Shown here piece after piece: positions 22,021 through 45,499 of a DNA stretch of 64,000 bases. The notes under the pieces are model-generated. The model saw only the letters and a list, made by a program, of their open reading frames with translations. It did no database searches and had not been told where the DNA came from. The DNA comes from Bryoerythrophyllum caledonicum (taxonomy: Eukaryota > Streptophyta > Bryopsida > Pottiales > Pottiaceae): assembly GCA_963971425.1 (NCBI GenBank), contig OZ020521.1, positions 12,293,519 through 12,357,518 on the forward strand, in the 5' to 3' direction. The position numbers and the translations under genes were made by a program. Every line of letters starts with the position of its first letter. Position 1 is the first letter of the stretch.

Positions 22021-22084
22021 CCTACAAGACACACAACAGGAGTAAATCCACGCAGAATCGACACAGACCAGCGCCTCATACACA

Positions 22085-22916: not shown

Positions 22917-24561
22917 ATGGATGCCATGGACACCGAGAACCCACACCCAGGAGTCATGAAGATCACAGAGGCTGAAGACTTAGCCTCAATGGCAAGTGGA
23001 GGCCCAACCCCATCCAAGAAAGCTAGAGGTAACTATCCCACCCCCATTCAAGTCTCCATCCCTGACCTCTCCTCATTTCGTTTTTTGGTTAGGCTTCTCT
23101 ACCATGGAAAAGCTTGCCAAGGATGTAGGACAGGAGCCCCTATTCAGTGGAGAGAGTATCAGAGATATGATAACGCATGGAGTACCCAAGGATGAAGCAG
23201 AGGAGGCCCTTGGCGCCACTGTGGCTTACCCGAGGATCCCGCAATTATTATATTCATCGATTCGCAACGACAACATCGAAGGCCAACATTACAACCTTAC
23301 ACATGTACCCTTCGATATCCCTACGCACCCTATCACCGGACTATCCTATGACTTCCATGTGGCAATTCACTTTGAATTGCCACCGCACCCCATGTACCAT
23401 GATGATGTGAAGAGGCTAGCACTAGCTCGACTCAAACACATGCACATCCCATTAGGCACCAATCTAATGGACCCCATGGCCGTTCTATGCAAAGGGGTCA
23501 AAAAAGAGGGGCAGAAGGGTATATGGTCAAGAATTATTAAACTACACCTCCTCAGGCCAGAGGTGGATGCTATTGCCCTCCTTCGTGGCACTAGATACTT
23601 CATTCTACATTTGGACCCCATAGGACAGGCCTCCTTAGGGAAAGTATGTCAAACTTTCCATGCAATAGCGAGGAAGAATCTATCAATGCGAATCAAGAGC
23701 GAGTCTCTCAAAGGTGTGACTGCCCACACCCTCTTCCAAGATGTGGTGACAAACAGTTTCTCGAGAAACTTGGAATTCGAGATTACAGATGTGCAGAAGG
23801 TACAGGAAGATTCACACGCCTTCATTGTTGCCCCAACCCCTCAACAAGCCAAGAAATTCGAGCTACACCAAATTACCACACAACATGAGGTGATGCCAGC
23901 GCGTGCTAGTAGCTCTGGAGGCCTCTCTCCAGCTGATAGAGCCAAGAAGGATGCATTAACGGTCACCGTCTCACATCTTCCCATCCTTATGAGCGTGGCA
24001 GAAACCACGGCAGCCATTCACCAAACCTTTGAAGCCAAGAATATCATCTCCCTATGGTTTCACAAGCAGCAGAGAGGAATGCACAACGATAGTGCCAATG
24101 TGGAATTCCCTAACCCCATCATCTACCGCCAATTTCTTCACAAGACATTCACCATAGGGCATCACCAAATGGAGATTTCTCCCCACCGCCGTAGCCCCGA
24201 AGGAGAGGACCCACCCGCCACCGCATTATTGGAGAAGTGGGGTTTTAATGACATCAACAAAGCCCTCGTAAACACCGTGGAGTCTCTCCAAACTACCCCC
24301 GCTCCCGCAAGCATCACCAGGTCAGAAATGACCTCCATTATAGATGCATGCAACAAAAGACTGCGTCAGGAGCTCTCTACCCTTAGAGAGGACATCATCA
24401 AAGACACTAGAGCCTACACCGATAACCGCACCAGTGAGCTACAAGCCAAGTTATCAAATGTGGAACAGCTAATGACCTCAACATTGATGGCTATGCAACA
24501 AATTACAGGATCGAGGCCACCACACACTCCAGCCTTGGAAGACCACTCAAACGTGGATTGA
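22917..24561 (+). pseudogene. LINE copy 1 ORF1 (RRM-like, coiled coil), frameshifted
   Basis: Homologous to the intact ORF1 of copy 2 over almost its whole length. It opens MDAMDTENPHPG in one frame, then continues in another after a 1-bp change in the T-run near 23085 (FWLGFSTMEKLAKDVG). The long frame 22996-24561 gives 521 codons. The centre (ALTVTVSHLPILMSVAETTA to MEISPHRRSPEG) has the beta-alpha-beta character of an RRM. The end (TSIIDACNKRLRQELSTLRE onward) is a predicted coiled coil. ORF1 proteins of LINEs bind element RNA and form particles. This copy would not be expressed intact. Confidence 0.75.
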
Positions 24562-25079
24562 CCAATGACCCCAGCCGAAGAAATCACCAATATGGCACCA
24601 ATATGGCACCACATGGAAGGACAAGGTTGGCACCCCTCCCCTCCATACTCCTCAATTCTCTTCGAACATTCCTATTATCCCCTCTAGTATGTTTTCTTCT
24701 TGTTACTACTATATGCTAGTTAGTACTCTCACACATACTATATTAGTACCCCCAACACCACCACAACTAGATGTAAACTCCCAAAGGCTTCACCCTCTCA
24801 CTATCTTGCCCTTAATAATGACATATCTTTTCACTACTATAGTTGCAGTATACCTTAGCCTTACCACATGATGTACCTCCTCATCACTAGTCACCTCCTA
24901 CTCTAGACACATTCTCTACTATTACCACAAAATACTTACAACTAAATGTATGACCTGGAGACCTCACGGTGAACACATGTATTGTTTTTGGGGTTTCACC
25001 TCACATATCTATAAGCATTGTCATTGCATATACCATTACGGTATGAATATCTCTTGGGAAAAAAAATACAAGATACACA

Positions 25080-25790
25080 CACTCAACACTCATACATCCT
25101 TACGACATCTCTACATCACAAACACACCCCATACACACACACACAACACACAAATCCTACTCCCACAAACACCTCCAACTTATAAGAACACTTACCACCT
25201 TGCATGCCACCTCTTACACACACCTCCCAAAAACACAACCAAACAAACTATCACCAACACAAACTCACCAAAAACAATCATCATAATTGAATACATATCA
25301 GCATACACACACACACACACACACACAAAATCAAGACAAATACACAAACACCCACACACTCACACACACACAAATACACACAAAATAAAACCATAAATAC
25401 ACACGTACACACCTACACAAAAACAAAAATACATCCACACAACCAAATATACACACATAAGACCAAAAATACACATAATACATACACACACATACAAACA
25501 CACACACTCACACATCCACAATCGCAAACACAACCCTACTTATACAAAACCACAAAGACACACACAAAAACACACCTAAAAAACTATAAACAAGCCCACA
25601 CACACACTATAAAAAATACATATACAAAGATAACACTCAAAACCACAGAAAACATCATAATCGCAACAAATCCCACAAACAAAAACACACACACAAGTAC
25701 TAAAAACAAGAACATAAAAACAAAAAATTACCAAAAACTTATACACAAACCAAAAAACCAAAAACAACACCCTAAACCTCTACACTATAA
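25080..25790 (+). repeat. CA-rich low-complexity tract in LINE copy 1 ORF2 leader
   Basis: Long (CA)n-like stretches of acacac, broken by A-runs, occupy the place of the Asn/Thr/Tyr-rich ORF2 leader of copy 2. No clean reading frame remains here. Confidence 0.6.
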
Positions 25791-25812
25791 AATCCTATTA
25801 TTACTAAGTAGA

Positions 25813-25836
25813 GATATAGAAACCAACCCGGGACCC
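25813..25836 (+). other. 2A-like motif DIETNPGP in LINE copy 1
   Basis: GAT ATA GAA ACC AAC CCG followed by GGA CCC encodes D-I-E-T-N-P-G-P, the D(V/I)ExNPGP consensus for ribosomal skipping. It is preceded by a Leu run, as in known 2A peptides. It is conserved in copy 2 at 35793-35816. Confidence 0.85.
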
Positions 25837-28506
25837 ATACCTAATGTACTAAAAAGACATCCCACAACACATAAGAAAAACGCCAAATTATACTTCATAC
25901 CAAATACCATAAAATTACAACCGGAATACAAACACATTGCTCAGACATTTTCACCCCTTCTCAAAACCACACACATATTACATCAACTACACAACATAAA
26001 GCACCCAAATATTGCCCAATATATACAACAAAAAAATACACATCCATCAACACATATTTTATATGCATTAGTCATTACCACCCACCCAAACATAGACGAA
26101 TGTAACCGTCTCCTAAATCTACAAAACCCAAATATAACTACATGGACTAACACATTATTACAAACTTTATTAAACCTACAAAATCCACCCGAAAGTCATA
26201 TCCGCACCACATACCCCTATACAAAATTTCTCGAAGATAACCTAAATATCATAAACCACAGAAACTCAATACATAAAGATTTATACGACTTTATACACAG
26301 TCAAACCGCACCCCCCACAAGCAACACAATAAAACAGAAATTCCCCTTCCTCCCTAATAATTCAATTAATGAAACACTAAAATGTTTTGACCCCATAATA
26401 GAATACACACACCCACCTCCTCCCCCTTCTTTTTCCCCCCCCCCCACCGAACCAAAACACTAACACAAACAACGAACATACAAACATCATGACATGGAAT
26501 ACATCATCTCTAAACACCGCTCTCCCCAGCTTACAAACTTTGGCTACATATGCAGAAACACCACTGGCCCTTATAGTCATTCAAGAAACTAAAATATCCG
26601 CCACAAAATCTACCAAATACATACAAAACATATTCCAAGACTATAAACTAGTTCTTAATAACACGCATGCACTAACCAGATGTATCCAACAACGGAGACC
26701 ATATACACCTGGACGAGGAGGCCTACTTACACTAATACACAAAAAATATGCCTTCCCGGGCAACATCAAAAAAATTCCTACCCCAATGAACATATCCCCC
26801 TATCTTCAAATAATTAGAATTACTAACCAACCATTACAACCATGGATAATTTTTCATATGTATATGCCATCTCACCCCGAAGATACTAGATTTATTATAG
26901 ATATACAAAACACTATCACATCCCAACTAAATCAAAACCCTAATCATACTTACTTGTTATGTGGAGATTTCAACAGAGACATAGCACTAATTGGAAGACA
27001 AAACGGAAATCATAATACACCACCTCAAACCATAGACTATCAATGGCGCCACTTCACAGAAAACCTTAACTTCACCTATATAAACACCGATACACAATAC
27101 TCCAGACAAGGTGGCTACAACTATAATGATTGGAGCCTAATAGATGGCTTTTATATAAATACAAATAACAGTACACAATACACTTCCACAACAAACAAAG
27201 ACATTATTCCCAACTCAGACCATTCACCAATACAACTCAACATCCCAAATAACATACTAATAAGTCGTACACCCACAACCGCAAACAATACTACTAAACG
27301 CATACTTAACCCCATCCCAAAAAATAACTTAGAAAAATTCAACACAAAATTCTTCGAAGAAAACTCCACATCAATTGACTCTCTCATAAACATCCTTGAC
27401 AATAATAATCAACGCTCTCGAACACAATGGCACGAAACATGTCACACTCTAGATATAATTATAAACAATATCTCTAACACATTGGAACAGACTTGCATGG
27501 CCCAACCAATACCACAAATGACAAACCGTACAGCACAACAAGGTGGCTACTTACCCCGAAAACTCTCAAAAATATGGAAACAACACTTAACCACATACCA
27601 TACAATATGTAAAACAATTAGAATCGTAAAAAATAACCCACAATGGCGTAACCATCCCATATATAATGAATTACTAACTCTACAACATACCCAAATTCCC
27701 GCCCCGCCGCCCTCAAACCTACCCCATGACACATGGATAACAGACATTGCACTAATCGCAAAAAAAAAGCCAATATACAAGCACGAAAAGTAACTACAAA
27801 ATATTCAAAAGACAATATTAAAAAAGCCATCTCAAAATATAGACAACTATATGAAACCAGCCCTAAGAAAATAAATAAAAAAGTTTTTAAAAACTCTGAA
27901 TCCCCCCCACTAGATTGTATCATCGACCAATATAATAATATCCTAACCCGTCCAGAAGATATCGCAAACGAAATATTCAAACAACAGACAAAAAACAATA
28001 GACCCACAGTACTAACATGCAACTACCAACCACAACATCCAATCAAATGCACATGTGCAGTACGCCAATACCCATAGCATGATCGAGATGGTTTTACCCT
28101 AGACAAACGAGGCGACCCAGAAACTCCATTACACACATACTTCAACAGAGCCATATACGATACATGCCTATGCAACCTCGGAAATAACAAAGCCCCAGGA
28201 CCAGACCGCATACCAAACTCAATACTCAAAAACATGCCCTTTAGATTTCACAAATTAATATTTCTATTTTTCTCTCATTGTTATTAACAAAAACAAATTC
28301 CAAACTCATGGAAAACAAGTGCAACAATTTTATTATAAAAAAAAGGAGATCCCTCAATATTACCAAATCATAGACCAATAGCATTAGCCAATATAATATA
28401 TAAACTCTACACCAATACCCTTACCTCAATATTATCTTCATATGGTGAAAAATTTAAAATCCTACACGATAGTCAAGAAGGATTTAGAGCAGAGAGAAGT
28501 ACCTCT

Positions 28507-28519
28507 AGACAAATACAAA
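28507..28519. repeat. Target-site duplication of inner LINE, left copy
   Basis: agacaaatacaaa at 28507-28519 is repeated at 40933-40945. It lies inside the RT gene of copy 1, so the duplication also marks the split of that gene. Confidence 0.92.
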
Positions 28520-28531
28520 GAAGAAGAAGAA
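28520..28531 (-). repeat. (TTC)n 3' tail of LINE copy 2
   Basis: On the minus strand the element ends in four TTC units instead of poly(A). Copy 1 ends the same way at 45476-45488. Simple-repeat tails are usual in LINEs that need a specific 3' RNA end for priming. Confidence 0.85.
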
Positions 28532-28556
28532 CGCCGGTTCCCGAAGGGAACCGGCG
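28532..28556 (-). other. Terminal 3' hairpin of LINE copy 2
   Basis: A perfect 11-bp stem (cgccggttccc with gggaaccggcg) closes a 3-base loop, directly before the (TTC)n tail. Copy 1 keeps a 10-bp version with a bulge at 45452-45475. This suggests a structured 3' end recognised by the RT. Confidence 0.85.
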
Positions 28557-29074
28557 TGAATAAAGTGTCTGTTCGTTCCATTGCAAAGACCATGCCCACC
28601 GGACAAGGAATTAGCGAACTGGAACTACTTCCCCCTTACGAGGGTAGACACTATGTAACGAGTAGCCAGAAACCAACCAACAACGACCAACCACGACCAA
28701 ACTAACTAAACAACAAAAAGCAAAATCAAACAGGCAGCCAATCAGGAAGAGACAGAGTGGCGAAGTTCCTAAGGGGGGTCTTGCCTATCAGGGAGGACTT
28801 GGTTGTTTTCGATTTTGCGTTTATGCAGTAAAATAGACATGGCATGTTGAATAGCGATGGTGTTGAAATTTTTAAAGGTAGTTTTAATTGTATCAATGGG
28901 TATCTTGAGGGTATCTTCGAGAGTTTTCATAGATGGGATAAAGGTGGTGGCACGAGCGCCGGATGTGATAACAATAAGGGGGTCCACATTCCAGCCGAGG
29001 GCAATGATGTCGTCTATGAGAGGTTGGTATTTATCTATTTTGTTTTGTATTGTTTCCGGGGAGAATCTATCGTT

Positions 29075-29185
29075 GCAATATGTAAATTCGATGAATTGAA
29101 TGGTGTAGTCTTGGTTGATGTTCTCGGGTGGTGGGTCGTTGTATGGTAAACCTTTGACACAAAGAATGTCCGGTTTGAGCCTAGC
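29075..29185 (-). other. Restriction-like endonuclease (PD-(D/E)XK-like) segment of ORF2
   Basis: The order CCHC finger, then R-x-K-P-D, then about 24 residues, then E-F-T, then a conserved NKIDKY, parallels the zinc finger plus RLE at the C-terminus of R2-type and Dualen elements. Copy 1 keeps RLKPDILCVRG and FIEFTYCNDRF at about 44890-45010. The third catalytic position is Thr rather than Lys, so activity is uncertain. Confidence 0.5.
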
Positions 29186-30559
29186 CTTGCAATGACATCT
29201 TTGGGTCATACATGGGCATGGAAGTAGCCATGGGGGGACCGTGTTTTCTTGTGGATTGCTATTAAAAGTGCCGGCGTTCATAAGTATGAAACATCTCGAT
29301 TTATTGTAGGAGGTGATTAGTTTTCGGACTTCCCATACCGCTTTGTTATGTCTTTTAACAATTAGGGAGTGTATGTGGTGGTTTTGGCATTTGAGTAGCA
29401 CATGAAGCCATGTGTCGGGGTCCGTTGAGGAGCATATGGGGCATGTTATGGATGGGAATCTTTCTATTCCAAAGAAGAGTTGTTTGCGAGCATTTCCCAT
29501 GTACTGACCCGTCCGGAATTTGATGAGGCACGTTATTTGTGAGTCTGAGATGTTGGGATTTTTCCAAAAGTTTGTAGAGAGTTCATTGTCTATGTCATTA
29601 TTGTTAGTCCATTTTTCTATGTTAGGAATATTTTCTGAGATTGTATCCAGGTTGTTGTAGAGGTCTTGTTTTTTGAGATATTTGCCCAGGAATCTAATTG
29701 GGCCTTTGTCAGGGGTATCTTCTTTGGAAGGCCAATCTTCTTTTTGAAAGTAGTATGGGGTGGCATGAGCATGTTCGTGAGGGTCTTTGGCGTTTTTGTG
29801 TGTTTTTTCTCGGCCTTCTTTTGCAAGTTTGTCTGCTTGTTCGTTGCCATCAATGTTGGCATGGGCTCTCACTTTGTGAAGGATTGTGATTTGTGTACGT
29901 TTTTGTAACATTTGTACCATTGATGTTAGTATGGTTTGGTCGGGGTGACTGTTGTGAAGGGTTGGGTGTGTTATTTGAGTGTTTAGTAGGTAGAGTGCAT
30001 TTATACAATCGGTGAATATATGTGCAGGTTCATTTTTGTATTTTGTTGTGATGATTTGTAGTGTTTTGTGAATGGCCATGAGTTCTGCTCTGAGGATATT
30101 TTGTAGCCCATGGAGTCTTTTGGCTAGTTTAATTTCTTTGGTAGAATTATATATGCCATAGCCAGCTTTTTCTCTTCGCCAAGAGCCCGGGCTAATTTGT
30201 TCCGGTGGTTTAAAGGAGCCGTCGGTGTAATAACTGTATGCGGGGTTAAATTTTGGTGTGGTATGAGTTGGGTAGTCTGGGAGAGGGGGAGATATGACGG
30301 AGTAGTTTAATGTGTTGTTGTCATAGTTTAATTTTGACCATTTTTTACTTTTGTTTACGGGGGTTTGTATGGGTGTTGGTGGGGCCGGTTTTGTGTATGG
30401 TCGTTGTATGTCTAGATTGTCTGTTATGGAGGTAAGTTCCGCAAGTTGTTCTAGGGAGCCGAGGTTTTGATTTTGATGATGGACGCATAGTATTTGTAAT
30501 GTAGATGGCTCTATTCGGGGTTTTTTTTAGCTCGGGTGGGATATTAGGTTCTTCGTATG

Positions 30560-30920
30560 GTATTGTGTCTGCTTCAAATACTGCAATGATGTGGGAATCT
30601 GGGAATGGGTTTGAATGTTGGTTGTTGTTTTGGTACCAATTGTTGTTCGGTGTGACGATGATTGTTTTTGTGTTATTTGGATCGTGTTTGGCGGCAAGTC
30701 TAGCCCAATGTATGGCTTGTTCTATTTCTTTCTCGTTGTGGGGGTGAGCTATTCCATTTCCGATCCATTTGTGTTCAAAGGCCTTGCCTAGGGATCCAAA
30801 TATTTTGTCTCTTTCGTACGGTGAGTAGAATTTATTTAGTTTAGTAGGACATGTGATCGGGGAGGAAAAGTATGAGTGTTCGATGTTAAAGGATGATATT
30901 AGTGAGTCTAAAATGGGGGT
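30560..30920 (-). other. PCIF1-type methyltransferase-like segment of ORF2
   Basis: Between RT and RNase H is a conserved block: FNIEHSYFSSPITC, FYSPYERDKIFGSLGKAF, WIGNGIAHPHNEKE, IIVTPNNNWY. In PCIF1 m6Am methyltransferases the matching elements are ESPLNC, a D-x-x-FGS-x-G motif, EANPPF, and FIVFIPEW. The spacing agrees. The catalytic NPPF is replaced by AHPH in both copies, so a structural rather than catalytic role is likely. The match is from memory of the family, not from a search. Confidence 0.4.
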
Positions 30921-33900
30921 GGGTATTGTGTATTGCGCATTTTTGAGGGGGTCAGTTTTTGGTATTCGATATTTATATCTTTGATAAAGCCATATTAGTT
31001 CGGTTTCAAAGGGTTGGGTTGTTGGTTCAATGTTTGTAGGGGTTTGTAATTTTGTATGATATTGGTTCCATAACCATTGGAGCCGGGTAATGGGTATGGT
31101 GTGTAAATGTCGGCCGTTTTCTTCGTATAGATGTGCTTGATTGTTATCTATTTGAATTGTGTTTGAGGATGTAAGGATATCATTTTCGGGGTTGCATTCT
31201 GTTGTGTAGATGTTTAAGAGTGGGATAATTATGGGTGGCGTTACGGACCTTGAGTCTAAGGATTGTTCTTGTGGATGGTGGGCAAGGATGATATCTGAGT
31301 ATATTTTGTTTTGGATCTTTTGGTAGTATTGTTTTAATTTTTCAGTGTTATGTGTGGAGGTATTGGTGTCATGCCGTGGAAAAAGGTCTCTTTGGGGGAG
31401 CCATTTATTGTATGTATTATCATTGTGTTGCCATTGGCATAGATATTTTGTGTAGATATTTTGTATGTTATTTGTGTCTGTGTGTTGGATATGTTTATGG
31501 TTTATGATATTATTAATGGGGTATGTGGTAGGGTTTTTGGGGATGTATGTTGGGGGGCGGGGGTGGTATGTATGTGGGGGGTTAGGGGGATTGGTTGGTG
31601 TGAGAATATTTCTTGGGATGATGTTATTGTTGAGGGTGATGAATGGATCTTTAAGTGTATGAGAGTATGGGTGTATGTTGCAAGGAGTATGACATATAGT
31701 GGGGCATGTTCTGTGGCAAAATAGTTGTTTAGCAACACTTAGGGCACTCTTTATTAGTTTAGATGAGGTGAAGTGGTAGGTTTTGAAGTCCTCATTGTTC
31801 ATGATGTGTGTACCGTTAGGTAAGGTAATTTGGTTTAGTTCAAAAATATTTTTTGAGAGGAGTTTTTGTAGAAGCTTTTGGGAGAGTTGGGCATTGAGTG
31901 TGTTATGATTTAATGTTTCTTGGCGCCATAGTATTTCTAGTGTTGTAGGATTAGTGAGGAAGTTCGGGAGCGTACTTTTAAGGTGGGCTCTAGCTATATG
32001 TTTTAATAAGAAGAATGTTCGTGTTATTGGTGATCTTATGCAGTCACTTTTTTTAATTCTCGGTATGTTTTCAGCGCCACCATATTGGGCAAGGACATAG
32101 TGAGTTAATCCATTATATATTTTCTCAAGTCTTCCTTTATCATTTAGAGCATTTTGCAGTTGTTCGCCTATACAACGGAGGTATGCGTTTTTGAGGGAGA
32201 AAGCTTCAAGTCCAAATAGGTTATGTGGTAGTTGGGTTATTGCGTTTGACATACATTTTGGTAATCCACATATGGTTTTTTGTATGGCTATTATTTTTTT
32301 ATCAAGTTTTTTGATAGCTGGCATAGAGTATGGTACACCGTAAAAACTGTATGCCACACCTGGGCGTAGTACGGTATCAACCATTTTTATTTTTTGTTTC
32401 ATGGTGGCTGGGCATGTTGTTAGTTCTTTGCATTGTTTGATGAGTTTTGTCGTTGTGGTGTGGATTTGGATTTTCCATTTTAGTGAGGGAACAAGGTTTG
32501 TGCCTAAGTATATGTATGGTTCATTTTGGTGTAGTATGGGGATCGGTTGATTGCGGTAATTGATGTTCGAGGCTTGCATTAGGGCTTTGAAAGTGGTAGG
32601 ATTCAATTTGGATTTGTTTGGGCAACCGGTAGCGGCACATTTTGGTACACCTACATCCATACCGTCCCATTTACAATATCTATCAATTTTGTTTAGTTGT
32701 ATTTGGATTGATTTGATTTTGTTAGTTATGGTGGCTAGGTCATCCGCGTATGCGGCAGAGTTTATTATGACTTGTGATGTGCCAAAAGTGTATCCGTAAT
32801 TTCCTCTTTCTAGCCATCTAAGTAGTGGTTCTAGAAATATAATGAATAGGTATGGGCTGAGGGTGTCCCCTTGTATAGTCCCTCTTTGGATGGGAATAGG
32901 TTTTGTTTTCCCAAAGTGTTCACCGGTATAACAAGTAGATGATTTAGAATAGATGTTTCCAACAAGTGTGGTTGCATCTTTTGGGTAACCTAGGTCCATC
33001 ATTATTGTTAGGAGTCGGGCATGGTCTATTGAGCCAAAGGCATTTTTGAAGTCCACGTATAGTATGTATATATCTTGGTTAGTAAACTTTGCATCTTCTA
33101 GTGCGGCTATTATAGTTTGTATTTGTCGTGCGGTACTTCTCTCTGCTCTAAATCCTTCTTGACTATCATATAGGATTTTGAATTTTTCGCCATATGAGGA
33201 TAGTATGGAGGTAAGTGTACTGGTAAAGAGTTTGTATATTGTGTTAGCTAGTGCAATTGGTCTATGGTTGGGTAGTATGGACGGATCGCCTTTTTTGTAT
33301 AGTAAAATTGTTGTACTCAATTTCTATGAGTTTGGTATCTGTTTTTGTTTATAGCAGTGGGAGAAGAATAGAAATAATAGCTTATGAAATCTTGGAGGCA
33401 TATTTTTGAGTATTGAGTTTGGTATGCGGTCTGGGCCTGGAGCTTTATTATTTCCAAGATTTTGAAGGCATGTGTCGTATGTGGCTCTGTTGAGGTATTT
33501 ATGTAGTGGAATTTCTGGTTCACCCCTTTTGTCAAGGGTATATCCGTCCAGGTCGTGCCATGGATATTGGCGTACTGCACATGTGCATTCTATTGTATGT
33601 AGTGGTTGGTAATTACATGTTGGTACTGTTGGTCTATTGGTTTTTGTTTGTTGGTTAAATATTTCATTCGCAATATCTTCGGGGCTAGTTAGTATATTAT
33701 TATATTGATCTGTGATACAATCCATTGTTGGGGATTCAAGGTTTTTAAAGACTTTTTTGTTAATTTTTTTGGGGCTGATTTCGTATAGTTGTCTATATTT
33801 TGAGATGGCTTTTTTAATGTTTTCTTTGGTGTATTTTGTGATTATTTTCCGGGCTTGAATGTTGGCATTTTTTGCAATTAGCGCGATATCTTTTATCCAT

Positions 33901-35792
33901 GTATCGTGGGGAAGGTCTGGAGGTGGCGGGGTAGGGATTTGTATGTGTTGTAGAGTTAATAGTTCATTGTTTATGGGGTGGTTACGCCACTGAGGGTTGT
34001 TTTTTACAATTCTAATGGTTTTGCGTATGGTATGGTATGTGATTAGGTGTTGTTTCCAAGTTTTAGCAAGTTTGCGGGGTAGGTATCCGCCTTGTTGAGA
34101 AGTTCTATTTGTCATTTGAGGTATTGGGTGTGCTCTACAGGTTTGTTCTAGTGTATCGGAGACTTTATTAATGAGTTTGTCTAGGGTGTGGCATGCTTCT
34201 TGCCATTGAACTTGTGTTAATTGACTATTGTTTTCAAGAGTGTCTATGAGGGAGTCGATTTGTACGGAATTTTCTTCGAAGAATTTTGTGTTGAATTTTT
34301 CTATGTTAGTTTTTGGGATGGGGTTGAGTATGCGTATAGTATCTTTGTTTAGGATTATAGGAGTTCTACTAAGTAGTGTGTTTTTGGGGATGTGCAATTG
34401 TACGGGTGAATGGTCCGAGTTGAGAATAATATCTTTGTTTGTTGTGGAGGTGTATTGTGTATTGTTGTTTGTATTTATATAGAATCCATCTATAAGACTC
34501 CAATCACTATAATTATAGCCACCTTGTCTAGAGAATTGTGTGTCGGTATTGATATAAGTGAAGTTTAAGTGTTCTATGAAGCGACGCCATTGGTAATCAA
34601 TGGTTTGAGGGGGGGTGTGCTGGTTTCCATTTTGGCGGCCAATTAACGCTATGTCTCTGTTGAAGTCTCCACATAATAGGTATGTATGATTGGGATTATT
34701 ATTAATTTGGGATGTAATAGTGTTTTGTATATCTAAGAGAAATCTAGTATCATCGGGGTGGGATGGCATATACATGTGAAAGATTAACCACGGTTGTAGT
34801 GGGTGGTTAGTGATTTTAATTATTTGAATGTATGGTGATATGTGCATTGGGGTAGGGATTTTGTTGATGTTGCCTGGGAATGTATATTTTTTGTGTATTA
34901 ATGTGAGTAGGCCACCTCGGCCCAGAGTGTATGGTCTCCGTTGTTGCATACATCTTGTAAGTGTATGTGTATTGTTAAAGATGAGTTTATAGTTTTGGAA
35001 TATATTTTGTATATATTTTGTGGATTTTGTGGCGGTTAGTTTTGTTTCTTGTATGACTATGAGGGCCGGTGGTGTGTCTATGTGTGTGACCAAAGTTTGT
35101 AAGCTAGGAAGAGCAGTGTTTAGTGAGGAGGCATTCCATGTGATTATGTATGTATTTTCTTGAGTTGATCTAATGTTTTGGTTTTGAGGAGGGATGTAGG
35201 GAGGAGGTGGGGGTGGGTGAATGTACTCTGGTATAGGGTCTAGACATTTTAGAGATTCATTTATAAGTTTGTTAGGGAGGTAAGGGAATTTTAATTTTAT
35301 TGTTTCATTTGAGGGGGGTAGGTTCTGACTATGTAAGAAGTCATAAAGTTTTTTATGTATTGAGTTCTCATGTTTTATAATATTTTGGTTGTCTTCTAAG
35401 AATTCAATATAAGGATGTGGAGTGTGAATGTGTCGTTCTGGTGGGTTTTGTAAGTTTAGTAAAGTTTGTAGTAGTGTGTTGGTCCATGTAATTGTGTTCA
35501 AATTTTGTGGATTAAGGAGATTGTTACATTCATCTATGTTTGGATGAGTAGTGACTATTAGTGCATATATGATGTGGGGTGGTGGGTGCGTATTCTTTTG
35601 TTGTATGTATTGGGCGATATTCGGGTGGGTCGTGTTGTGTATATGGTGTAATGTATGTGTGTTTTTAAAGAAAGGTGCGAAGGGTTTTGCAATGTGACTA
35701 TATTCTGGTTGGAGTTTTATGGTATTAGGTATGAAGTATATTTTGGCATTTTTCTTATGTGTTATGGGATGTCTTTTGAGTATATTTGGCAT

Positions 35793-35816
35793 GGGTCCGG
35801 GGTTAGTTTCTATGTC
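35793..35816 (-). other. 2A-like motif DIETNPGP in LINE copy 2
   Basis: On the minus strand, residues 295-302 of ORF2 read D-I-E-T-N-P-G-P after KLLLLLGG. Skipping between G and P would release a 301-residue leader from the enzyme part, which would start PMPNILKRHP. Confidence 0.88.
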
Positions 35817-36748
35817 TCCTCCTAGAAGTAGTAGGAGTTTGGTGCATGTATGTTTAGTGTTATATTTTAACTTTTTTGATTTTTGTAAGATTCTTTGAGG
35901 CTTTGTTATGTTATTAAGGTCTTGTATGTTTGGAGGGAGATGAATGTTTATATTTTGTATGAGGGTAGTGACTTTTTTGTTATTTATTTCTAAAGTGAGT
36001 GTATTTATTATTTTTTTTATTTTTTTTTGTATCCATGTATTTATTTGTTTAGTTGTTTTTATTTTATTGCTGTTGGATCGGTGTGTGCATGTTTGTTTGT
36101 ATTTTTTTGTGGTTATGTTTGGTTCGGTGTACGTGTGATTTTTATGTGTAAGAATATTTGTATATGGGTTTATGTTGGTATTTGTGGGGGTATTTAAGTC
36201 TTTTTTATATGTAGTTGTGTTAGTGTTTATGTTGGGGTTTATACTATTATCATTATTATTATTTTTTTGGGTTTTTGCATTAGTATGTATATCAGTATTT
36301 ATACTGATGTTTGTACTTGTACTTGTATTTGTATAAAGGTCACTATTTGTATTTGTATAAAGGTCACTATTTGTATTTGTATAAAGGTCAGTATTTGTGT
36401 TTAATACAGTATATGTATTTGTTCTTGTATATGTATTGTATGTACAGTATTTGATATAGTACTTGTATTTATTTTTTGTTTTAATACAGTATGAGTATAC
36501 CATATGTAGATTGTATGGCGTATACTCTACGGGGTACATGTTTATGTATTCTACCATGTATTCTACTGTGTATTTTACTGTATGTATGGTGGATAATACT
36601 ATATAGAGTACTAGTAGTGCTACTTTGTATACTACTATGTATTTTGATATGTATTGTGTATAGGTATTGTAATTACAAGGTTTATATACCTTGTACATGG
36701 TATATATTGATGTATGTGTGATATCTTTTTCCTTGTGGTCTTTAGTCT

Positions 36749-38719
36749 TTACATTCTTGGCAGTCCATCTTCAATTCTTGGTGTGCTCATGGCTTCGGTT
36801 AGTGCTTGCAATGATGCAAGAGTAGCACTCATCGTGTGTTGAATGCTAAGCATTTGAGTCTTCAATTCGTCACTTTTCTTGTCCGCATATGCTTGTGTTT
36901 CCAACCGTATTTTCTTGTTGCTTTCTTCCACCGCGGTCTCCACTATGGCAAGGATGTCTTTCTTCGTGAGGCTTTGAGATGTTTCTTCCATCTTGAAGGC
37001 CTCCACGGTGTTAACAATGGCTTTGTTAACGTCGGAGAAGCCAAATTCTTCTACTTGCTCCTTGGTAGGGGGCTCAATTCCATCAAGGCTTCTCCTATGG
37101 GGAGCGAAGTCGACATAGTGACCTCCTAGCTTGATGACCTTGCCCACAAACTTCCTGTAGATTATAGCATTAGCACAATGGACATTGGCACTTCCATTGT
37201 GCCTATGTCCATTGTCACGATGGAACCAAATGTGATTTATGTTATGCGTTCCCATAGCCTTGTGAATTTCAGCATTAGTGTCCTCAACATTCATACGAAT
37301 GGGTAATTGAGTTAGGGTGAGAGTAATGGCATCCTTCTTTGCCTTGCTCTCACGTGCAATGCCACTTGAAGATTCTCCTCCGTTGCCCGTTGGTTGGAGC
37401 ATCTCGTGGTTGGTAGCAATTTGATGTAGCTTAATCTTCGCCGCTTGTTGTGGAGTTGGTGCTATGATAAATGCATGGCTCTCTTCTCTCCCTTTCTGCA
37501 CACTAGTTACTTCAAACTCATGCCCACGGTTAAAACTATTACGAAGAATGTCTACAAAAAGAGAATTGGCAGAAATACCTTTGAGTGATTCACTTTTAAT
37601 TTTTGTGGAGAGATTAGAGTTCCTTGCAATAGCATGATAGCTTTTACATACTTTCCCTATTATATATTTCTTGTCTAACTTGAGGATGAAAGGTCTAAGC
37701 CCTTTGAGGAGGCTTATGCCATCAACCTCGGGTTTGAGAAGATGCAATTTAATTGTGCCCGCCCAAACTCCCTTTTTCCCGGCATTTTTCACACTCATGC
37801 AAAGGATGGATATAGGGTCAATAATCTCATTACCTACTTCGATTTCCATGAATTTTAGCCTATCAATCACCAAGGTTTTAACCTCATCATGCATGAGGAC
37901 AAGATTGCCTACCTCAAAGTGGATGGACACTTGAAAATCAAGGGCAAGCCCCGTAACTTCACTCACCGGGATGTCGAATGGTATTTGGGTTATGTTGTAG
38001 TGTTGCCCAACCGCCTCCTTCCTTACGCAAGGGTATAGGATTTGGGGGATTCGCGGGAATGCCGGGGTTGCTAGGGTGATTTCTTTGGCCTCCACTTCTT
38101 TGACTCCTCTTGTTACCATGTCGAGTATAGACTCATCATTGATTAGTGGCTCCAGCCCCATCTCCTTGGCCATATCCTCCAATACTTGAAATCCCAACCA
38201 AAATTTGAAGGGGGGAGCCTCGGGTTCGATAGTGATCACCATACCTTCTTCATTGGAGCTCCTCTTTTTCTTGCTAGAGGGGGATACTCCATCTTGGTTC
38301 GTTGTGGGGGCGGTGCTTGGGTGTCTCTTAAATTTTTCGCCGGATGCTTCAATCTCCATGTCGTCTCCGTACATAAGAGTTCGTCTACTTCCCCATTGGT
38401 CCATGCTTATATCCTGGCTTGCCGGGTCAGTGCTGCAGGGAGATGGGGTTCTGTGGTGGTAGAGGAGGTTGTTATTAGAGGAAGGTGGGTCGTTATGGAG
38501 GGGTGGTGTCAAGAGGGGGGAGGTCACAGGTGGTAGGAGGGTCTTTTCTGGGGGATGGGGGGACGTTAGTGGGATAGAAGGGTCACTGATGGGGGTAGGA
38601 GAGTCGTTGGGGGAATTAGGGGGGTTGTAACTTTGGTTGGGGGGGTCGTTAACCCATTTGGGGAGGTCACTATTCAAAATAGGAAGGTCGCTGCCTGGTT
38701 CTAGGAGGTCTCTGTGCAA
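36749..38719 (-). CDS. LINE copy 2 ORF1 protein, intact (RRM-like, coiled coil)
   Basis: An open frame of 656 aa. The first 110 residues or so are Pro/Ser-rich and disordered (PPNSPNDSPTPISDPS). A basic stretch SSKKKRSSNEEG could be a nuclear localisation signal. The middle (FKFWLGFQVLEDMAKEMG to HAFIIAPTPQQA) is conserved with copy 1 but unrecognised. Residues about 475-570 (AITLTLTQLPIRMNVEDTNA, then NGSANVHCANAIIYRKFVGK, then VDFAPHRRS) look like an RRM. The end (ESNKKIRLETQAYADKKSDE onward) is a coiled coil. It probably coats the element RNA and nucleates particles. It is separated from ORF2 by only 50 bp. It is intact, unlike ORF2. The Met at 38719 is the first in frame, and later starts are possible. 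Confidence 0.82.
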   Translation of the reverse strand: MHRDLLEPGSDLPILNSDLPKWVNDPPNQSYNPPNSPNDSPTPISDPSIPLTSPHPPEKTLLPPVTSPLLTPPLHNDPPSSNNNLLYHHRTPSPCSTDPASQDISMDQWGSRRTLMYGDDMEIEASGEKFKRHPSTAPTTNQDGVSPSSKKKRSSNEEGMVITIEPEAPPFKFWLGFQVLEDMAKEMGLEPLINDESILDMVTRGVKEVEAKEITLATPAFPRIPQILYPCVRKEAVGQHYNITQIPFDIPVSEVTGLALDFQVSIHFEVGNLVLMHDEVKTLVIDRLKFMEIEVGNEIIDPISILCMSVKNAGKKGVWAGTIKLHLLKPEVDGISLLKGLRPFILKLDKKYIIGKVCKSYHAIARNSNLSTKIKSESLKGISANSLFVDILRNSFNRGHEFEVTSVQKGREESHAFIIAPTPQQAAKIKLHQIATNHEMLQPTGNGGESSSGIARESKAKKDAITLTLTQLPIRMNVEDTNAEIHKAMGTHNINHIWFHRDNGHRHNGSANVHCANAIIYRKFVGKVIKLGGHYVDFAPHRRSLDGIEPPTKEQVEEFGFSDVNKAIVNTVEAFKMEETSQSLTKKDILAIVETAVEESNKKIRLETQAYADKKSDELKTQMLSIQHTMSATLASLQALTEAMSTPRIEDGLPRM

Positions 38720-40932
38720 AGGGGGGTCTCTTATTCTACTGGGAGGGTTACAATAGGTAGGTCGCGGGGAGGGGACAGGGAGGGGATTATGCCGTTGGAG
38801 AACGGGAGGACGAGAGGGTCGGGGGTCGGGAGGTTGAGGGAGTCTGGGGCGAAGAGACTGAGGAGGGTGCGAGGGTCAGAGGTTGGGAGGCTTAGCAAGG
38901 CTGGAGCAGGGGCTGAGTGAAGGCTAGGTGAGTTAGGGGTCGGGCGATTGAAGGGGTCTGGAGAGGGTCCGTGTCTGTACAAAGAGTGCACGAGGGGAGG
39001 GGAGCGGGGGAGTACAGGTGAGGTTAGGTTGAAAGGGTTGTGAGAGGGTCTGTGTCTATACAGAGAGTTCGCGCGAGGGGAGGGGAGCGGGAGAGTGCTG
39101 GTAAGGTTGAGAGAGGTTCCGCGAGGGGAGGGGAGCGGGAGAGTACTGGTGAGGCTGAGAGAGGTTCCGCGAGGGGAGGGGAGCGGGAGAGTATTGGTGA
39201 GGCTGAGAGAGGTTCCGCGAGGGGAGGGGAGCGGGAGAGTATTGGTGAGGCTGAGAGAGGTTCCGCGAGGGGAGGGGAGCGGGGGAGTGCAAGTGAGACT
39301 GGAAGAGGTTTCGCGAGAGGAGGGGAGCGGGGGAGTGCAGATGAGGCTGAGGGAGGTTTTGTGAGGGGGGAGTGTAGGTGGGGCTGAGAGAGGATTTGGG
39401 GGAGGTTTCGTAAGGGGAGGGGAGCGGGGGAGTGGAGGTGAGGCTCAGAGGGGATTAGTGGAGGGAGAGGAGCAAGGGGGTGCAGATGAGGCTGGGGAAG
39501 GTTTCGTGAAGGGAGGGGAGCGGGGGAGTGTAGATGGCGCTGAGAGAGGATTAGTGCGGGGAGGGGAGCGAGGGAGGGAAGGGATAGTTTTAGGGTTAGT
39601 TTCTGTGAGGGAGCTAGGGTTTGCTGCTGTGGATAGATCGGGGAATGTGAGGGGAGGGGAGCGGGGGAGGGAAGGGAGTCTGGGGTTTGCTGTTGTGAGT
39701 GGGTCGGGGAATGTGAGGGAAGGGGAGCAGGGGAGGGAAGGGAGGGGTTTCAGTAGGGGATTCGGAAGGGGAGGGGAGCGAGGGAGGGAGGGGAGGGGTT
39801 TCAACTGGAGGATTGGGAGGGGAGGGGAGCGATTGGAGAGAGGGGGGTGGAAAAGTCGAGGAAAGTTACTGGGATGTGCTATGTGGGGTTGTGAGGGAGG
39901 GCGGCCAGTGGAGAAGAGCTGGTGGGGAAGGGGAAGGTGATGAAGGAGAGTAGGGTTGGGGGAGGAGGGGGAGATTAAAGAGGGAGGAGTTGCAAAGGGA
40001 ATTGATGGATCTGTGAGAATGCTTACCTCCTTATTTGTCCTTGCTCTTGATCTTGCTTGTTTGTGTGGTGTTTGCTGCTGTAGCGTTGTTGCTTGTCTAT
40101 TGTTCTCCTGTCTCTGCCCGTCTTCAGATCTCCTATTGCTGCTGCTGATGATGTATGGGCTTGTAATGTTGGTGCAGATCTCGAGTAGGTGCGCGCGAGT
40201 TTGCGTGATTTGTGTAGATCTGTAGTGATTTTGCCAGCGCTTCCGCACACAATGTGATATTACCAAAAAATTTAATCTAATACGACATAATGTGCATCTT
40301 TTGTATGTGTTGTGTTTCCTAAGGAATCTGCTAAGCAATGAGCTTCTAAGGAATGATTGCAAGTGAGAGCAAATGTATACGATGCAAGGAAAGTAAATGA
40401 ATTTGGTGCAAACAATATAGGAGAGAGAAATGCTTATCACTGGTGTTGTTGTTGAAGCATGATTGACGCAGCTGCCGTAGGGCAGCTCTATCCTGTGTGT
40501 ACGATGTGGATCTTCAATGTTGAGTGTTGCATGAGTGGGTTGGGGAGGTGGAGCGACTGCTGGAAGGATGCAGATCTAGTCTGCGGAGATCAGATCTGGG
40601 TATTTCGCCACATAGAGGAGAGGCTGTAAGCTTAGATCTAAGTTCCAACACTGGTATCCCCGCTTTCAGCACCTTACCACCTCAGATCTAGCACAACTAT
40701 CCACTCTTTGTGATCGTGTCTACACAAATCTTGGTAAGAGCCCTTTCCAACTTCTCCAACTCTCACGCAGCTCTTGCAAACATCCAGACTAGCCTCAGCT
40801 TCCACACAAACGAGGGCTCCACAGCAACTCCAGCCACCTGTTACTGTTCGAGTGTTTGGTTTCTGAGACTGAGTCCCTCCACTCCCCTCACCACAAAACT
40901 CGGAGCTCTACTCAGTCATCCTGGACCCATCC
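38720..40932 (-). promoter_or_regulatory. 5' UTR of LINE copy 2
   Basis: About 2.2 kb. The first 150 bp match the 5' end of copy 1. AGATCT recurs seven times between 40125 and 40690. The inner half is strongly purine-rich on the plus strand and holds the 48-bp minisatellite. A 331-codon open frame in the sense direction (40440-39445) is Pro/Ser/Leu low complexity and is probably a by-product of the C-rich strand. Confidence 0.6.
38990..39810. repeat. G-rich 48-bp minisatellite in LINE 5' UTR
   Basis: About five near-perfect 48-bp units, 39072-39310 (gcgaggggaggggagcggga, then gagtactggtgaggctgaga, then gaggttcc), with degenerate units on both sides. Each unit carries several G runs on the plus strand, so it could form G-quadruplexes or triplex DNA. 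The element's sense strand is the C-rich one. Confidence 0.85.
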
Positions 40933-40945
40933 AGACAAATACAAA
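40933..40945. repeat. Target-site duplication of inner LINE, right copy
   Basis: agacaaatacaaa, identical to 28507-28519. LINE copy 1 resumes here within its RT gene. Confidence 0.92.
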
Positions 40946-43900
40946 CTATAATAGCGGCACTAGAAGATGCACGATTCACAAATCAAGACATATACGTTCT
41001 ATATGTTGACTTCAAAAATGCCTTTGGCTCTATAGACCACGCCCGATTATCAGCAATAATGACTCATATCGGATACCCAAAAGATGTAATTGCACTAATT
41101 GGAAATATCTATTCTCAATCATCTACTTACTACATCAGTGAGCACTTTGATAAAACTAAATCCATCTCCATTCATAGAGGCACTATACAAGGAGACACCC
41201 TCAGTCCATACCTATTCATTATATTTTTAGAACCACTACTTAGATGGTTAGAGCCAGGCGATAACGGATACACCTTTGGTACATCACAAATCACCATAAA
41301 CTCCGCTGCATACGCCGATGATCTTGCTACTATAACCAACAAAATAAAATCAATACAAACGCAACTTGATAAAATTGACAGATACTGTAAATGGACTGGT
41401 ATGGACGTAGGCGTCCCAAAATGTGCGGCTACAGGATGCCCAAACAAATCTAAATTGAATCCAACCACATTTAAAGCCCTAATGCAAGCTTCTAACATCA
41501 ACTACCGCGGTCAACCAATCCCCATACTACACCAAAACGAAGCATATGTTTACCTAGGCACAAATCTTGTCCCCTCTCTAAAATGGAAAATCCAAATCCA
41601 CACTACAACAGCAAAACTCACTAAACAATGCAAAGAACTAATAACATGTCCGGCCACCATGAAACAAAAAATAAAAATGGTTGACACCGTAATACGCCGA
41701 GGGGTAGCATACAGCTTCTACGCAGTACCATATTCTATGCCAGCTATTAAAAAACTTGACCAAAAAATTATAGCCATACAAAAAACCATCTGTGGTATGC
41801 CAAAATGCATGTCAAATGCAATAACCCAACTCCCACATAACCTATTTGGACTTGAAGCTTTCTCCCTAAAAAATACCTATCTAAGATGTATCGGGGAACA
41901 ACTACAAAATGCTCTAAATGACAAAGGTAGGCTCGGAAAAATATATAATGGACTAACACAATACGTTCTTGCTCAATATGGTGGTGCCAAAAATATACCC
42001 ATAATTAAAAAAATAGATTGTATAAGATCACCTATAACCCGTACATTTTTCTTATTAAAACACGTAGCTAAAGTTCACCTTCAAAGTACTCTTCCAAATT
42101 TCCTATTAGATCAAACATCATTAGAAACATTATGGCGGCAAGAAACATGCAACCATAATACACTCAACGCCCAACTCTCCCAAAAACTTTTACAAAAACT
42201 CCTCTCAAAAAACATTTTTGAACTAAAACAAATCACTCTACTAAACGGCACACACATCATGAATAACGAGGACTTCAAAACCTTCCACTTCACCCCATCC
42301 AAACTAATCAAGTGTTCATTAAATGTTGCCAAACAACTTTTTTGCCATCCAACATGCCCAACTACATGCAATATTCCTTGTAACATACACCCACACTCCT
42401 ACATACTACAAGACCAATTCATCACCATCAACAACAACATTCTCCCAAGAACCACTCTACCACCAATCCATCCTCCCAACCCCTCCTCCCAACCCCTCAT
42501 ACCCATACCACCCTCACCCCCCAACATACATCACCAAAAATCCCACCACATACCCTGTCCATAACATCATAAGCTACAAACACATACAACAAAAAGATAC
42601 CCATAGAATACAAAATACCTATACAAAATACCTTTGCCAATGGCAACACAACAACAATACATTCAACAAATGGCTCCCTCAAAGACACCTTTTTCCAAGA
42701 CACGACTGTAATGCCTCTACATTCAACACCGAAAAGCTAAAACAATACTATCAAAAAATCAAAGATAAATTCTACTCGGAAATCATTAAAACACACCACC
42801 CCCAAGAACAACTACAAGACTCAAGATCCGTAACCCCACCTATAATCATCCCACTCCTTAACATCTATACAACGGAATGTAATCCCGAAAAAAATATTAT
42901 CACAACCTCGAACTCAATAAAACTAGAGAACAATCAAGCCCATCTATATGAAGCAAATGGCCGACATTTACACACTATCCCCACTACTAGACTCCGATGG
43001 CTATGGAACCAATACAATAGAAAACTAAAAACCCCTACAAACATTGAACCAATTACACAACCATTTGAAACCAAAATAATTTGGCTATACCAAAGATATA
43101 AATACCGCATCCCAAAAAATAACCCCCTAAAAAATGCACAATACACAATACCCACATCTATTCTAGACTCACTAATATCATCCTTTAACATTGAACAATC
43201 ATACTTCTCTTCCCCCGTCACATGTTCCACCAAATTAAAAAAATTCTACTCACCTTTTGAAAGAGATAAAATATTTGGCTCCCTGGGAAAAGCATTTGAC
43301 TATAAATGGGTCGGAAATGGTATAGCTCACCCCCACAATGAAGAAGAAACTCAACAAGCACTACACTGGGCCCACCTCGCTGTGAAAAACGACCCACAAC
43401 ACACATCTACACTCATTATCACCCCAGAAAAAAATTGGTACCAAAACTTTAATCCCCAGTCAAGCCCATTTGCAGACTCCCACATCCTTGCAATATTTGA
43501 AGCAGACTCAATTCATTATGAAGAACCTACTATACCACCCGAGCTTAAAAAGCCGAGAATTGAACCATCTAGATTACAAATAATATGTGTCCACCACCAA
43601 AACCAAACCCTTGGCACCATAGACCAACTTACCGAACTCACCTCCATAGCAAAAACTCTTAACATAAATCGGATATATACAAAGATAGTCCCACCAACAC
43701 CTATACAAACATTAGTCAATAAAAGCAAAAAATGGTCAAAACTAAACTACAATAACAACACATTAGATCACATTTTCCCACTTCCACCCCTCCCAGACTA
43801 CCAAACTAACACCGTACCAAAATTTGATCCTACATATAGCTACTATACCGATGGCTCTTTCAAACCACCAGAATAGATCAGTCCGGGTAATTGGCGCAAA

Positions 43901-45304
43901 GAAAAAGCCGGTTATGGAATGTATAATCCTTCAAAAGAAATCAAACTAGCCAAACGACTGCATGGACTACAAAACATCCTCAGAGCAGAACTCATGGCCA
44001 TCCACAAAACACTAGAGATTGTTACAACAAAATACAACAATGAACCAGCACACATTTTTTCAGACTGCATTAACGCACTATACTTACTAAACACCCAAAT
44101 TACACATCCGACCCTCCACAATAGCCACCCCGACCAAATAATACTAAAATCTATGGTACAAATGATACTAAAACGAAGACAAATCACAACTATCCACAAA
44201 GTTCGAGCCCACCCCGATATTGATGGTAACGAACAAGCGGATAAACTTGCAAAAGAGGGCCGGGAAAAATCATACAAAAATGCCAAAGACCCACACGAAC
44301 ATGCCCACGCCACCCCATACTACTTCCAAAAAGAAGATTGGCCCTCCAAAGAAGACACCCCCGATAAAGGCCCAATTAGATTTTTGAACAAATACCTACA
44401 AAAACAAGACCTATATAATAACCTTGACACAATCTCAGATAACTTCCCTAACATAGAAAAGTGGACTAACAACAACAATATTGACAATGAACTCTCTACA
44501 AATTTTTGGAAAAATCCAATCATCACCGACTCACAAATAACATGCCTTATTAAATTCCGTACCGGACAATACATGGGAAACGCCCGAAAACAGCTCTTCT
44601 TTGGAATAGAAAGATTCCCATCTATAACATGTCCAATATGCACATCCACATACCCTGACACATGGCTACATGTTCTACTTAAATGTCAAAACCACCACAT
44701 ACACTCCCTAATTGTCAAAAGACATAACAAAGCCGTATGGGAAATCCGCAAATTAATCACCTCCCATAGCAAATCTAGATGTTTTATCCTCATGAATGCC
44801 GGCTCCTTTAACAACAATCCACAAGAAAACACGGTCCCACCATGGCTACTCCCATGTACATGTGAAACCCAACGATGCCATTGCAATGCCCGACTCAAAC
44901 CAGACATACTATGCGTTAGAGGCCTTCCATACAAAGACCCCCCACCCGACCACATAAACCAAAACTATACCATTCAATTCATTGAATTTACATATTGTAA
45001 TGATAGATTTTCCCCTATAACAATCAAAAACAAAATCAATAAATATCAATCCCTAATAGATGACATCAATGCCCTTGGCTGGAAAGTGGACCCCCTTATG
45101 GTAATCACAGCCGGCGCTCGCGCCACCACCTTTATCCCATCTATAAAAGTCGTAGAAGATATCTTCAAAATTCCCATCAATACAATTACAAACACTTTCA
45201 AGAATATCAACATCATTGCCATACAACACGCTATGTCCATCCTTCTACATAAACGAAAAATTGAAAACAACCAAGCCCTCCCAGATATTCAAGACACCCC
45301 ATGA
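40946..45304 (+). pseudogene. LINE copy 1 ORF2, 3' part: RT to RLE-like end
   Basis: It continues the RT of copy 1: YVDFKNAFGSIDHA, QGDTLSPYLFIIF, YADDLAT. Long frames are 41059-42564, 42323-43876 and 43919-45304. The frame shifts once near 42500, in a Pro-rich stretch, and a TAG at 43874-43876 lies in frame just after the RNase H start (YYTDGSFKPPE), where copy 2 has CAA. It keeps the methyltransferase-like block (43150-43530: SYFSSPVTC, FGSLGKAFDY, GNGIAHPHNEEE), RNase H (RAELMAIH, DCINALYL, ADKLAKEG), CCHC finger (CPICTSTYPD, LLKC) and RLE-like end (RLKPDILCVRG, FIEFTYCND). The protein ends KIENNQALPDIQDTP. Confidence 0.85.
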
Positions 45305-45451
45305 AATTACCATTCTTCATTTCTATGGTTCTCGGTTTATGGTTACTTGTTGCATAGTGTCTACCCTCGAGAGGGGGAAGTAGTCCGAGCTTACCAATTC
45401 CTTGTCCAGTGGACACGGTCTTAGTAGTGGAACGAACAGACACTCTATTCA

Positions 45452-45488: not shown

Positions 45489-45499
45489 TAAAGCGGGCC

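Follow-up and report, generated by a model that had tools for sequence, protein, structure and literature searches.

A LINE with a probable Dualen/RandI-type pairing of two endonucleases and a PCIF1-like domain in a sequence of apparent land-plant origin

The window analysed here, a stretch of 64,000 nucleotides from Bryoerythrophyllum caledonicum (contig OZ020521.1), holds two copies, A and B, of one family of long interspersed nuclear elements (LINEs). Very probably, this non-LTR retrotransposon shares the dual-endonuclease architecture known from Dualen/RandI, lives in an apparent land-plant host and has at least two subfamilies. Its second open reading frame (ORF2) is laid out as a low-complexity leader, a 2A-like motif, an apurinic/apyrimidinic endonuclease-type nuclease (APE), a reverse transcriptase (RT), a weakly matching chromodomain-like stretch, a PCIF1-like domain, an RNase H, a CCHC finger and a putative restriction-like endonuclease (RLE). 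New features are the PCIF1-like domain changed at its active site, the 2A-like motif and the apparent land-plant host. Coordinates are collected in Table 1.

Copy A is nested, in opposite orientation, inside a full-length copy B. The 13-bp sequence AGACAAATACAAA has two exact plus-strand matches in the window, both directly bordering copy A, and by these flanking duplications the element limits given in a preliminary description of this DNA (28520-40932) are exact. The second copy named there is the element that received the insertion of A; its full-length, nested state, the PCIF1-like domain and the 2A-like motif go beyond that description. Between A and B, blastn aligned five stretches at 72–85% identity; the two large ones (2.8 kb at 79.6% and 4.4 kb at 81.9%) span most of ORF2, and the 5' third gave only two short alignments. 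Synonymous divergence (dS) in ORF2 was ~0.9–1.0, and A and B are therefore two subfamilies rather than recent sister copies. Common to both is a 3' end with a terminal hairpin and a (TTC)n tail; the hairpin of B was predicted in an 80-nt stretch (z –1.43), with 18 of 200 shuffles folding equally well. The 48-bp tandem repeats in the 5' part of A (39012-39629) differ from the repeats in the 5' part of B (21830-22283), which measure 88 and 95 bp.

The ORF2 length of about 2640 codons in the preliminary description was borne out (ATG at 36698 to 28769). Calling the 12.4-kb copy 'nearly intact' was also fair, as ORF2 of A has a single stop codon in frame, located in the RT, and a single frameshift, which falls after the PCIF1-like part and before RNase H. 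In the aligned part of B, four stops in the frame of A and several indels were found. The order APE, RT, RNase H was recovered by Pfam (Exo_endo_phos 3.6e-5, RVT_1 3.4e-25, RNase_H 1.1e-6), and the APE-type nuclease ahead of the RT was seen in both copies, by Pfam matches and APE motifs. The Exo_endo_phos score of A fell just below the cut-off (24.1 versus 24.5 bits) and that of B above it (25.5 bits). The RT domain of A begins upstream of the in-frame stop, beyond the limits of the Pfam match; compared with solved structures it matched R2 at 2.3e-25 and no other RT at E ≤ 10. RNase H was found in B as well (PF00075 3.9e-9). The pattern D.E.NPGP occurred twice in the six frames of the window, at matching places in A and B and nowhere else. 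The chromodomain match (PF00385) was below the cut-off in both copies (0.04 in A, 0.9 in B) and was not found in the related proteins L001 or L003 described below. Ahead of the chromodomain-like part, a Cys/His-rich stretch CHxTCPTxCxxPCNIH, possibly a zinc knuckle, is kept in A (31671-31718, minus strand) and B (42343-42390, plus strand). ORF1 gave no Pfam family above cut-off in A (656-aa ORF scanned) or in B, where coiled-coil families alone appeared below cut-off; a C-terminal coiled coil is likely in ORF1 of B.

When genome contigs of bacteria and archaea were scanned with the RT, 65 candidate stretches were obtained, among which seven relatives were confirmed (L001-L007). Nearest to the RT of A were L001, L002 and L003 (41–44% identity), three separate families (55–61% mutual identity over the first long match) located in contigs of metagenome-assembled genomes filed as Clostridiales and Mollicutes. 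Their source is probably sediment, as the isolate names contain 'Sed', and, judged by content, they are probably misbinned eukaryotic DNA in the reference genome collection. In L003, APE, RT, a PHD-like finger, a PCIF1-like stretch, RNase H, CCHC and RLE lie in one open frame of 3038 codons (Pfam: APE 2.5e-11, RT 5.9e-24, RNase H 1.4e-15). Pieces of A matched the L003 protein collinearly in blastp (RT 1e-72, PCIF1-like 2e-6, RNase H to RLE 1e-29; these and the blastp, hhalign and small-set HMMER E-values below apply to a pair or a handful of proteins and are not database-wide). The other two are partial: L001, with RT and PF12237, starts after the APE and ends before RNase H and RLE, and L002, with APE and RT, is cut before any RLE could appear. 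An APE is also present in L007, which is cut at its 3' end. By motif, L004 and L005 have an RLE; L004 is cut at the 5' end, beyond which an APE could lie, and L005 has no APE family in Pfam. L006 is two-thirds masked, with no APE seen. By eye, the PHD-like finger sits between the RT and the PCIF1-like part, from residue 1954 in L003 and 1163 in L001; zf-RING_15 matched L003 at 0.018, and no such finger was seen in the window element.

This arrangement in L003 bears on whether the pairing of nucleases could be an artefact, produced by nesting or misassembly. A is indeed nested in B, so that parts could mix; however, the order is complete and contiguous within A, can be read in B across its two parts flanking A, and recurs in a single open frame of L003, which comes from a different assembly. 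We give this explanation practically no weight.

A maximum likelihood RT tree was built from 11 rows: A, B (right of the insertion only), L001-L007 and two R2 sequences. It left out 8gh6 (a silkworm-type R2) and named Dualen/RandI sequences, and its root was not inferred. A, B and L001-L003 formed one clade (100/99), the two R2 grouped with L004 and L005 (98/98), and L006 and L007 were placed on long branches apart from the clade of A and B. Because the labels of L004 and L006 are uncertain, the tree shows a separate clade rather than a clean contrast of nuclease types. The proposal of the preliminary description that the dual APE and RLE arrangement places the element with Dualen/RandI is thus supported by sequence and by this clade, with Dualen known here from descriptions. 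As an alternative, an RLE element of R2, NeSL or Utopia type might have gained an APE independently, outside the Dualen branch. Its RT is nearest to R2 among solved structures, and the APE of the window element resembles that of L003 only weakly (blastp 0.029, profile 0.11), a result that also counts against Dualen/RandI placement. Such an origin is nevertheless improbable, given an RT clade lying apart from R2, L004 and L005, an L003 that shares the APE-to-RLE order including the PCIF1-like insert, and passages of two papers in which Dualen is the sole LINE group described with both nuclease types (PMC4640811; PMC3636483).

The second nuclease was examined with RLE letters taken from solved R2 structures. 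Both copies carry C-x2-C-x9-H-x4-C, RHN, KPDI and IEFTYC at the C-terminus, and the R2-style CCHC finger and PD...EFT block that had been noted after RNase H are therefore motifs of A and B alike. After the finger, RHN, KPD, E-x-T, K..KY and GAR follow in R2 order. Of the 353 window frames, only the two belonging to A and B matched a collinear motif pattern derived from R2; among 300,000 shuffles of the C-terminus of A one did, a count that favours the match since spacings were widened after the element had been seen. In hhalign, a profile of A, B and L003 aligned with one of three R2, L004 and L005 at 86% probability (pairwise E 5.9e-7, score 37.2) across C..C, H..C, RHN, KPD, K..KY and GAR. 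Column shuffles (200) reached at most 25.4, and controls built from three other domains (four profiles) and from the reversed profile stayed at 11–16. When the HMMER search was reversed, L004 (0.0053) and one R2 (0.044) ranked ahead of all 200 shuffles, whose best value was 0.53. The nuclease motif itself varies, from the textbook PD...ELK of L003 to PD...EFT in the window and PD...D-V-T or D-V-Q in R2.

A series of results weighs against this assignment. The RLE had no Pfam match, and the profile of A and B gave no match to solved structures. With R2 alone, HMMER returned the window frames at E 2.1–2.4, though at ranks 1 and 2 of 353, hhalign gave an RLE probability of 1.4%, and local alignment gave z 1.5–4.7 over six comparisons. 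With L004 and L005 added, HMMER placed B (0.068) and A (0.29) next after those two, and L003 failed outright (E 37). In the reverse direction, two R2 (0.76 and 3.7) and L005 (14) did not beat the shuffles. L003 does not fit the R2 motif pattern, and AlphaFold of the CCHC-RLE part (2 rows) gave no usable model (predicted local distance difference test score, pLDDT, 31.4). Beyond the RLE, scans of viral contigs found no relative, and a few stops or frameshifts break both copies.

These weak tests leave room for a plainer explanation, in which the element belongs to the APE-type plant LINEs (L1 lineage, RNase H present) and carries only a zinc finger, and no second nuclease, at its C-terminus. 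The C-x2-C...H...C finger is present, several single RLE tests were not significant, and a 2022 review gives plant LINEs as L1 and RTE (PMC9033089). However, the finger is followed by RHN, KPD, E-x-T, K..KY and GAR as in R2, the profile match at 5.9e-7 was not reproduced by any control, L003 keeps PD...ELK, and among solved structures the RT matched R2 alone. We therefore consider a finger without a nuclease quite unlikely, about as much so as an independent gain of the APE, and take the RLE as established by sequence, with its fold unproven. The preliminary assignment accordingly stands in its motif order, now joined by a profile match with controls; HMMER support for the RLE is weak, and its PD-(D/E)XK fold is presumed.

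The stretch between RT and RNase H was matched by the PCIF1 family PF12237 in both copies (A 41.8 bits, B 49.8–50.2 bits; 4e-13 in another scanned piece of B), above the curated cut-off of 31.1. In L001 the match was 25.8 bits (9.4e-6), below the cut-off, and in L003 none was reported. Used against three proteins, however, a profile of the window domain detected L001 (9.6e-12) and L003 (2e-7). In hhalign, a four-row profile aligned with PCIF1 structures (pairwise E 7.3e-5, score 35.0; best of 150 shuffles 19.5, RT and RLE profiles 14.5–14.6), and a profile of A and B only scored 30.5 against 18.8 for shuffles. The likeness to PCIF1 (6irv, 6irx) covers 76 profile columns, from LP..V..AL to the NPPF loop, above all 150 shuffles. 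Searches of solved structures reached PCIF1 only at E 0.05–1.4, and AlphaFold of the chromodomain- and PCIF1-like part (3 rows) gave no usable model (pLDDT 32.5). The PCIF1-like domain is probably old in the lineage, since it is common to distant environmental relatives.

Unlike PCIF1, the window domain sits inside a retrotransposon polyprotein and has HPxx in place of NPPF, which we take to be the catalytic motif of PCIF1. The NPPF letters of 6irv and 6irx align with HPHN in A and B and with HPIY in L001 and L003, the His-Pro being invariant over these four aligned sequences. An active adenine methyltransferase, acting on the RNA cap or cDNA of the element, would agree with PF12237 scores above cut-off in A and B, with the selection on this region reported below, and with the similarity in L001 and L003. 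It is unlikely, given that all four sequences have HPxx where PCIF1 has its catalytic motif; a non-methylating module is suggested by this replacement. Most likely, the alignments suggest, the fold was kept without the canonical methyl-transfer site and would serve in binding capped RNA or the transcription machinery. More tentatively, with somewhat less than even confidence, we propose that land-plant and distant environmental dual-endonuclease LINEs share an ancient PCIF1-derived domain in which the Asn of NPPF is now His, a cap-methyltransferase fold turned into an integration module that binds capped RNA or polymerase beside two jointly selected nucleases. A search of the open literature, with subscription journals and Repbase outside its scope, found no paper joining PCIF1, non-LTR retrotransposons and methyltransferase.

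The ratio of nonsynonymous to synonymous substitution rates (dN/dS) served as the measure of selection. It was computed on codons alignable between A and B in the part of ORF2 that starts shortly before the 2A motif and extends to the ORF end, with ORF1 outside the scoring. The ratios were 0.109 for APE, 0.081 for RT, 0.07 for the chromodomain-like stretch (66 codons), 0.149 for the PCIF1-like domain, 0.254 for the stretch before RNase H, 0.052 for RNase H, 0.032 from RNase H to CCHC and 0.10 for CCHC-RLE. In the control, run on the two other frames of the PCIF1-like and RLE regions only, dN/dS was 0.9–4.5. Every scored region of ORF2 is thus under purifying selection (0.03–0.25), which implies that the lineages giving rise to A and B retained the two nucleases and the PCIF1-like domain through selection.

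Since the comparison lacked a named Dualen reference, membership in Dualen/RandI rests on architecture and on the RT clade. In one ORF the element places an APE ahead of the RT and a CCHC finger and R2-type RLE after it; it also has an RNase H and a short-repeat tail that is not poly(A). Descriptions of Dualen/RandI share the APE before the RT, an RLE of PD-(D/E)XK type, the RNase H and the short-repeat 3' tail; against these descriptions, the window element differs in its apparent land-plant host and may also differ in its PCIF1-like domain and its 2A-like motif. Green-algal RandI tails are given as (ATT)n and (CTATTT)n, not poly(A), in a 2013 paper whose Table 3, among plants and algae, lists Dualen/RandI for green algae only (PMC3747384); Table 3 of a 2015 paper likewise lists green algae only (PMC4438587). 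Other papers report Dualen in all Chlamydomonas relatives studied (PMC8226300) and, in 2025, an expansion of LINE/Dualen in cryptophytes (PMC12747079), and one takes the place of Dualen as a sign of APE replacing RLE in LINE evolution (PMC4640811). A literature search naming Dualen with plants returned, by title, no land-plant genome study (Repbase was outside its scope). In their 2005 abstract, Kojima and Fujiwara are said to have described Dualen with a cysteine protease. Pfam scans of pieces of A and B, and of L001 and L003, gave no peptidase family, though a divergent one could escape.

With R2 (9nl2, 9nl3, 9dou, 8gh6 and 8ibw, the last two of which we take to be R2 structures) the element shares RT similarity and, in order, H-x4-C, RHN, KPD, (D/E)-x-T and K..KY, with GAR common to it and 9nl2, 9nl3 and 9dou. 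In contrast to R2, it adds an APE, RNase H, PCIF1-like domain and ORF1, and A is inserted into a further LINE copy, while the insertion site of B shows no Rfam resemblance to rDNA. Plant L1 LINEs share ORF1 and ORF2, APE, RT and RNase H; they differ from the window element in its RLE, R2-like RT, PCIF1-like domain and a 3' end of hairpin and (TTC)n in place of poly(A).

Around the LINE pair, an ACC (1-aminocyclopropane-1-carboxylate) synthase exon (4631-5392, minus strand; 9.4e-74 to 1iax) and a serine-glyoxylate aminotransferase (58922-59368, minus strand; 1.2e-63 to 6pk1) point to a land-plant host, though these two genes would also fit a charophyte alga. An Rfam search of the window gave nothing at gathering thresholds and no rRNA match. 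The pair is enclosed by a 4.6–4.8-kb inverted duplication (13685-18310 and 51217-56027; 84–99% complementary in pieces), and a second, inner inverted pair lies at 45617-46253 and 49655-50359 (87–95% complementary). By eye, a frame at 346-1338 (plus strand) resembles the RT/RNase H end of Ty1/copia; Pfam gave no match at E ≤ 0.1 for the ORF at 412-1341. Frames at 61604-62491 (minus strand) resemble an N-recognin UBR7 gene by eye alone, no search having been made.

Table 1. Positions of the two LINE copies and of their features in the window
Feature	Position	Strand	Details
Copy A, complete element	28520..40932	-	12,413 bp, 13-bp target-site duplications both sides
Target-site duplication of A, element's 3' side	28507..28519		AGACAAATACAAA
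Target-site duplication of A, element's 5' side	40933..40945		AGACAAATACAAA
(TTC)n tail of A	28520..28530	-	3' end
3'-terminal GC-rich hairpin of A	28531..28557	-	predicted in 81-nt stretch, z -2.75
ORF1 of A	36752..38875	-	708 open codons; tblastn 47% to B over 500 columns
ORF2 of A	28769..36698	-	ATG at 36698, about 2640 codons
2A-like motif of A	35793..35816	-	DIETNPGP, upstream of APE
APE endonuclease domain of A	34404..35144	-	PF03372 3.6e-5; motifs WN, QE, GDFN, SLID, SDH
RT of A, Pfam match	32502..33287	-	PF00078 3.4e-25; YADD at 32750
Chromodomain-like stretch of A (tentative)	31380..31511	-	PF00385 0.04
PCIF1-like domain of A	30642..31046	-	PF12237 1.1e-10; HPHN from 30749
RNase H domain of A	29810..30229	-	PF00075 1.1e-6; D, E, D, D motifs present
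CCHC finger of A	29387..29443	-	C-x2-C-x9-H-x4-C, motif
Putative RLE of A	28895..29386	-	RHN, KPDI, IEFTYC, K..KY, GAR
Copy B, 5' part, split by A	20827..28519	+	three blastn stretches, 72-80% to A
Copy B, 3' part	40946..45488	+	two blastn stretches, 82 and 85% to A
Target-site duplication of B, 5' side	20816..20826		TAAAGCGGGCC, 11 bp
Target-site duplication of B, 3' side	45489..45499		11-bp duplication
ORF1 of B	22984..24558	+	525 codons
2A-like motif of B	25813..25836	+	place matching A
APE domain of B	26489..27040	+	PF03372 1.3e-5, frame residues 1-184
PCIF1-like domain of B	43028..43477	+	PF12237 2.9e-13
CCHC and putative RLE of B	44624..45178	+	motifs, profile comparison

The element would spread by target-primed reverse transcription. 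Its RNA would be bound by the ORF1 and ORF2 proteins, the target would be nicked by a nuclease, presumably the APE, and the RT would prime on the nick from the 3' end marked by the hairpin and (TTC)n tail. RNase H would remove the template, and the CCHC-RLE module may bind DNA and make or position the second-strand cut. The 2A-like motif would probably split the enzymatic part of ORF2 from the low-complexity leader through ribosome skipping, and the PCIF1-like domain may, without methylating, bind capped RNA or the transcription machinery. In this scheme the assignment of nucleases to strands, the 2A activity and the function of the PCIF1-like domain are inferences. Purifying selection on both nucleases in land-plant copies would mean that the pair is kept for use and is not merely a leftover, and the PCIF1-like module would place a cap-enzyme fold within a LINE polyprotein. 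The element offers a test of how two nucleases are used by a single LINE, and of whether a PCIF1-like module lets a LINE recognise capped RNA.

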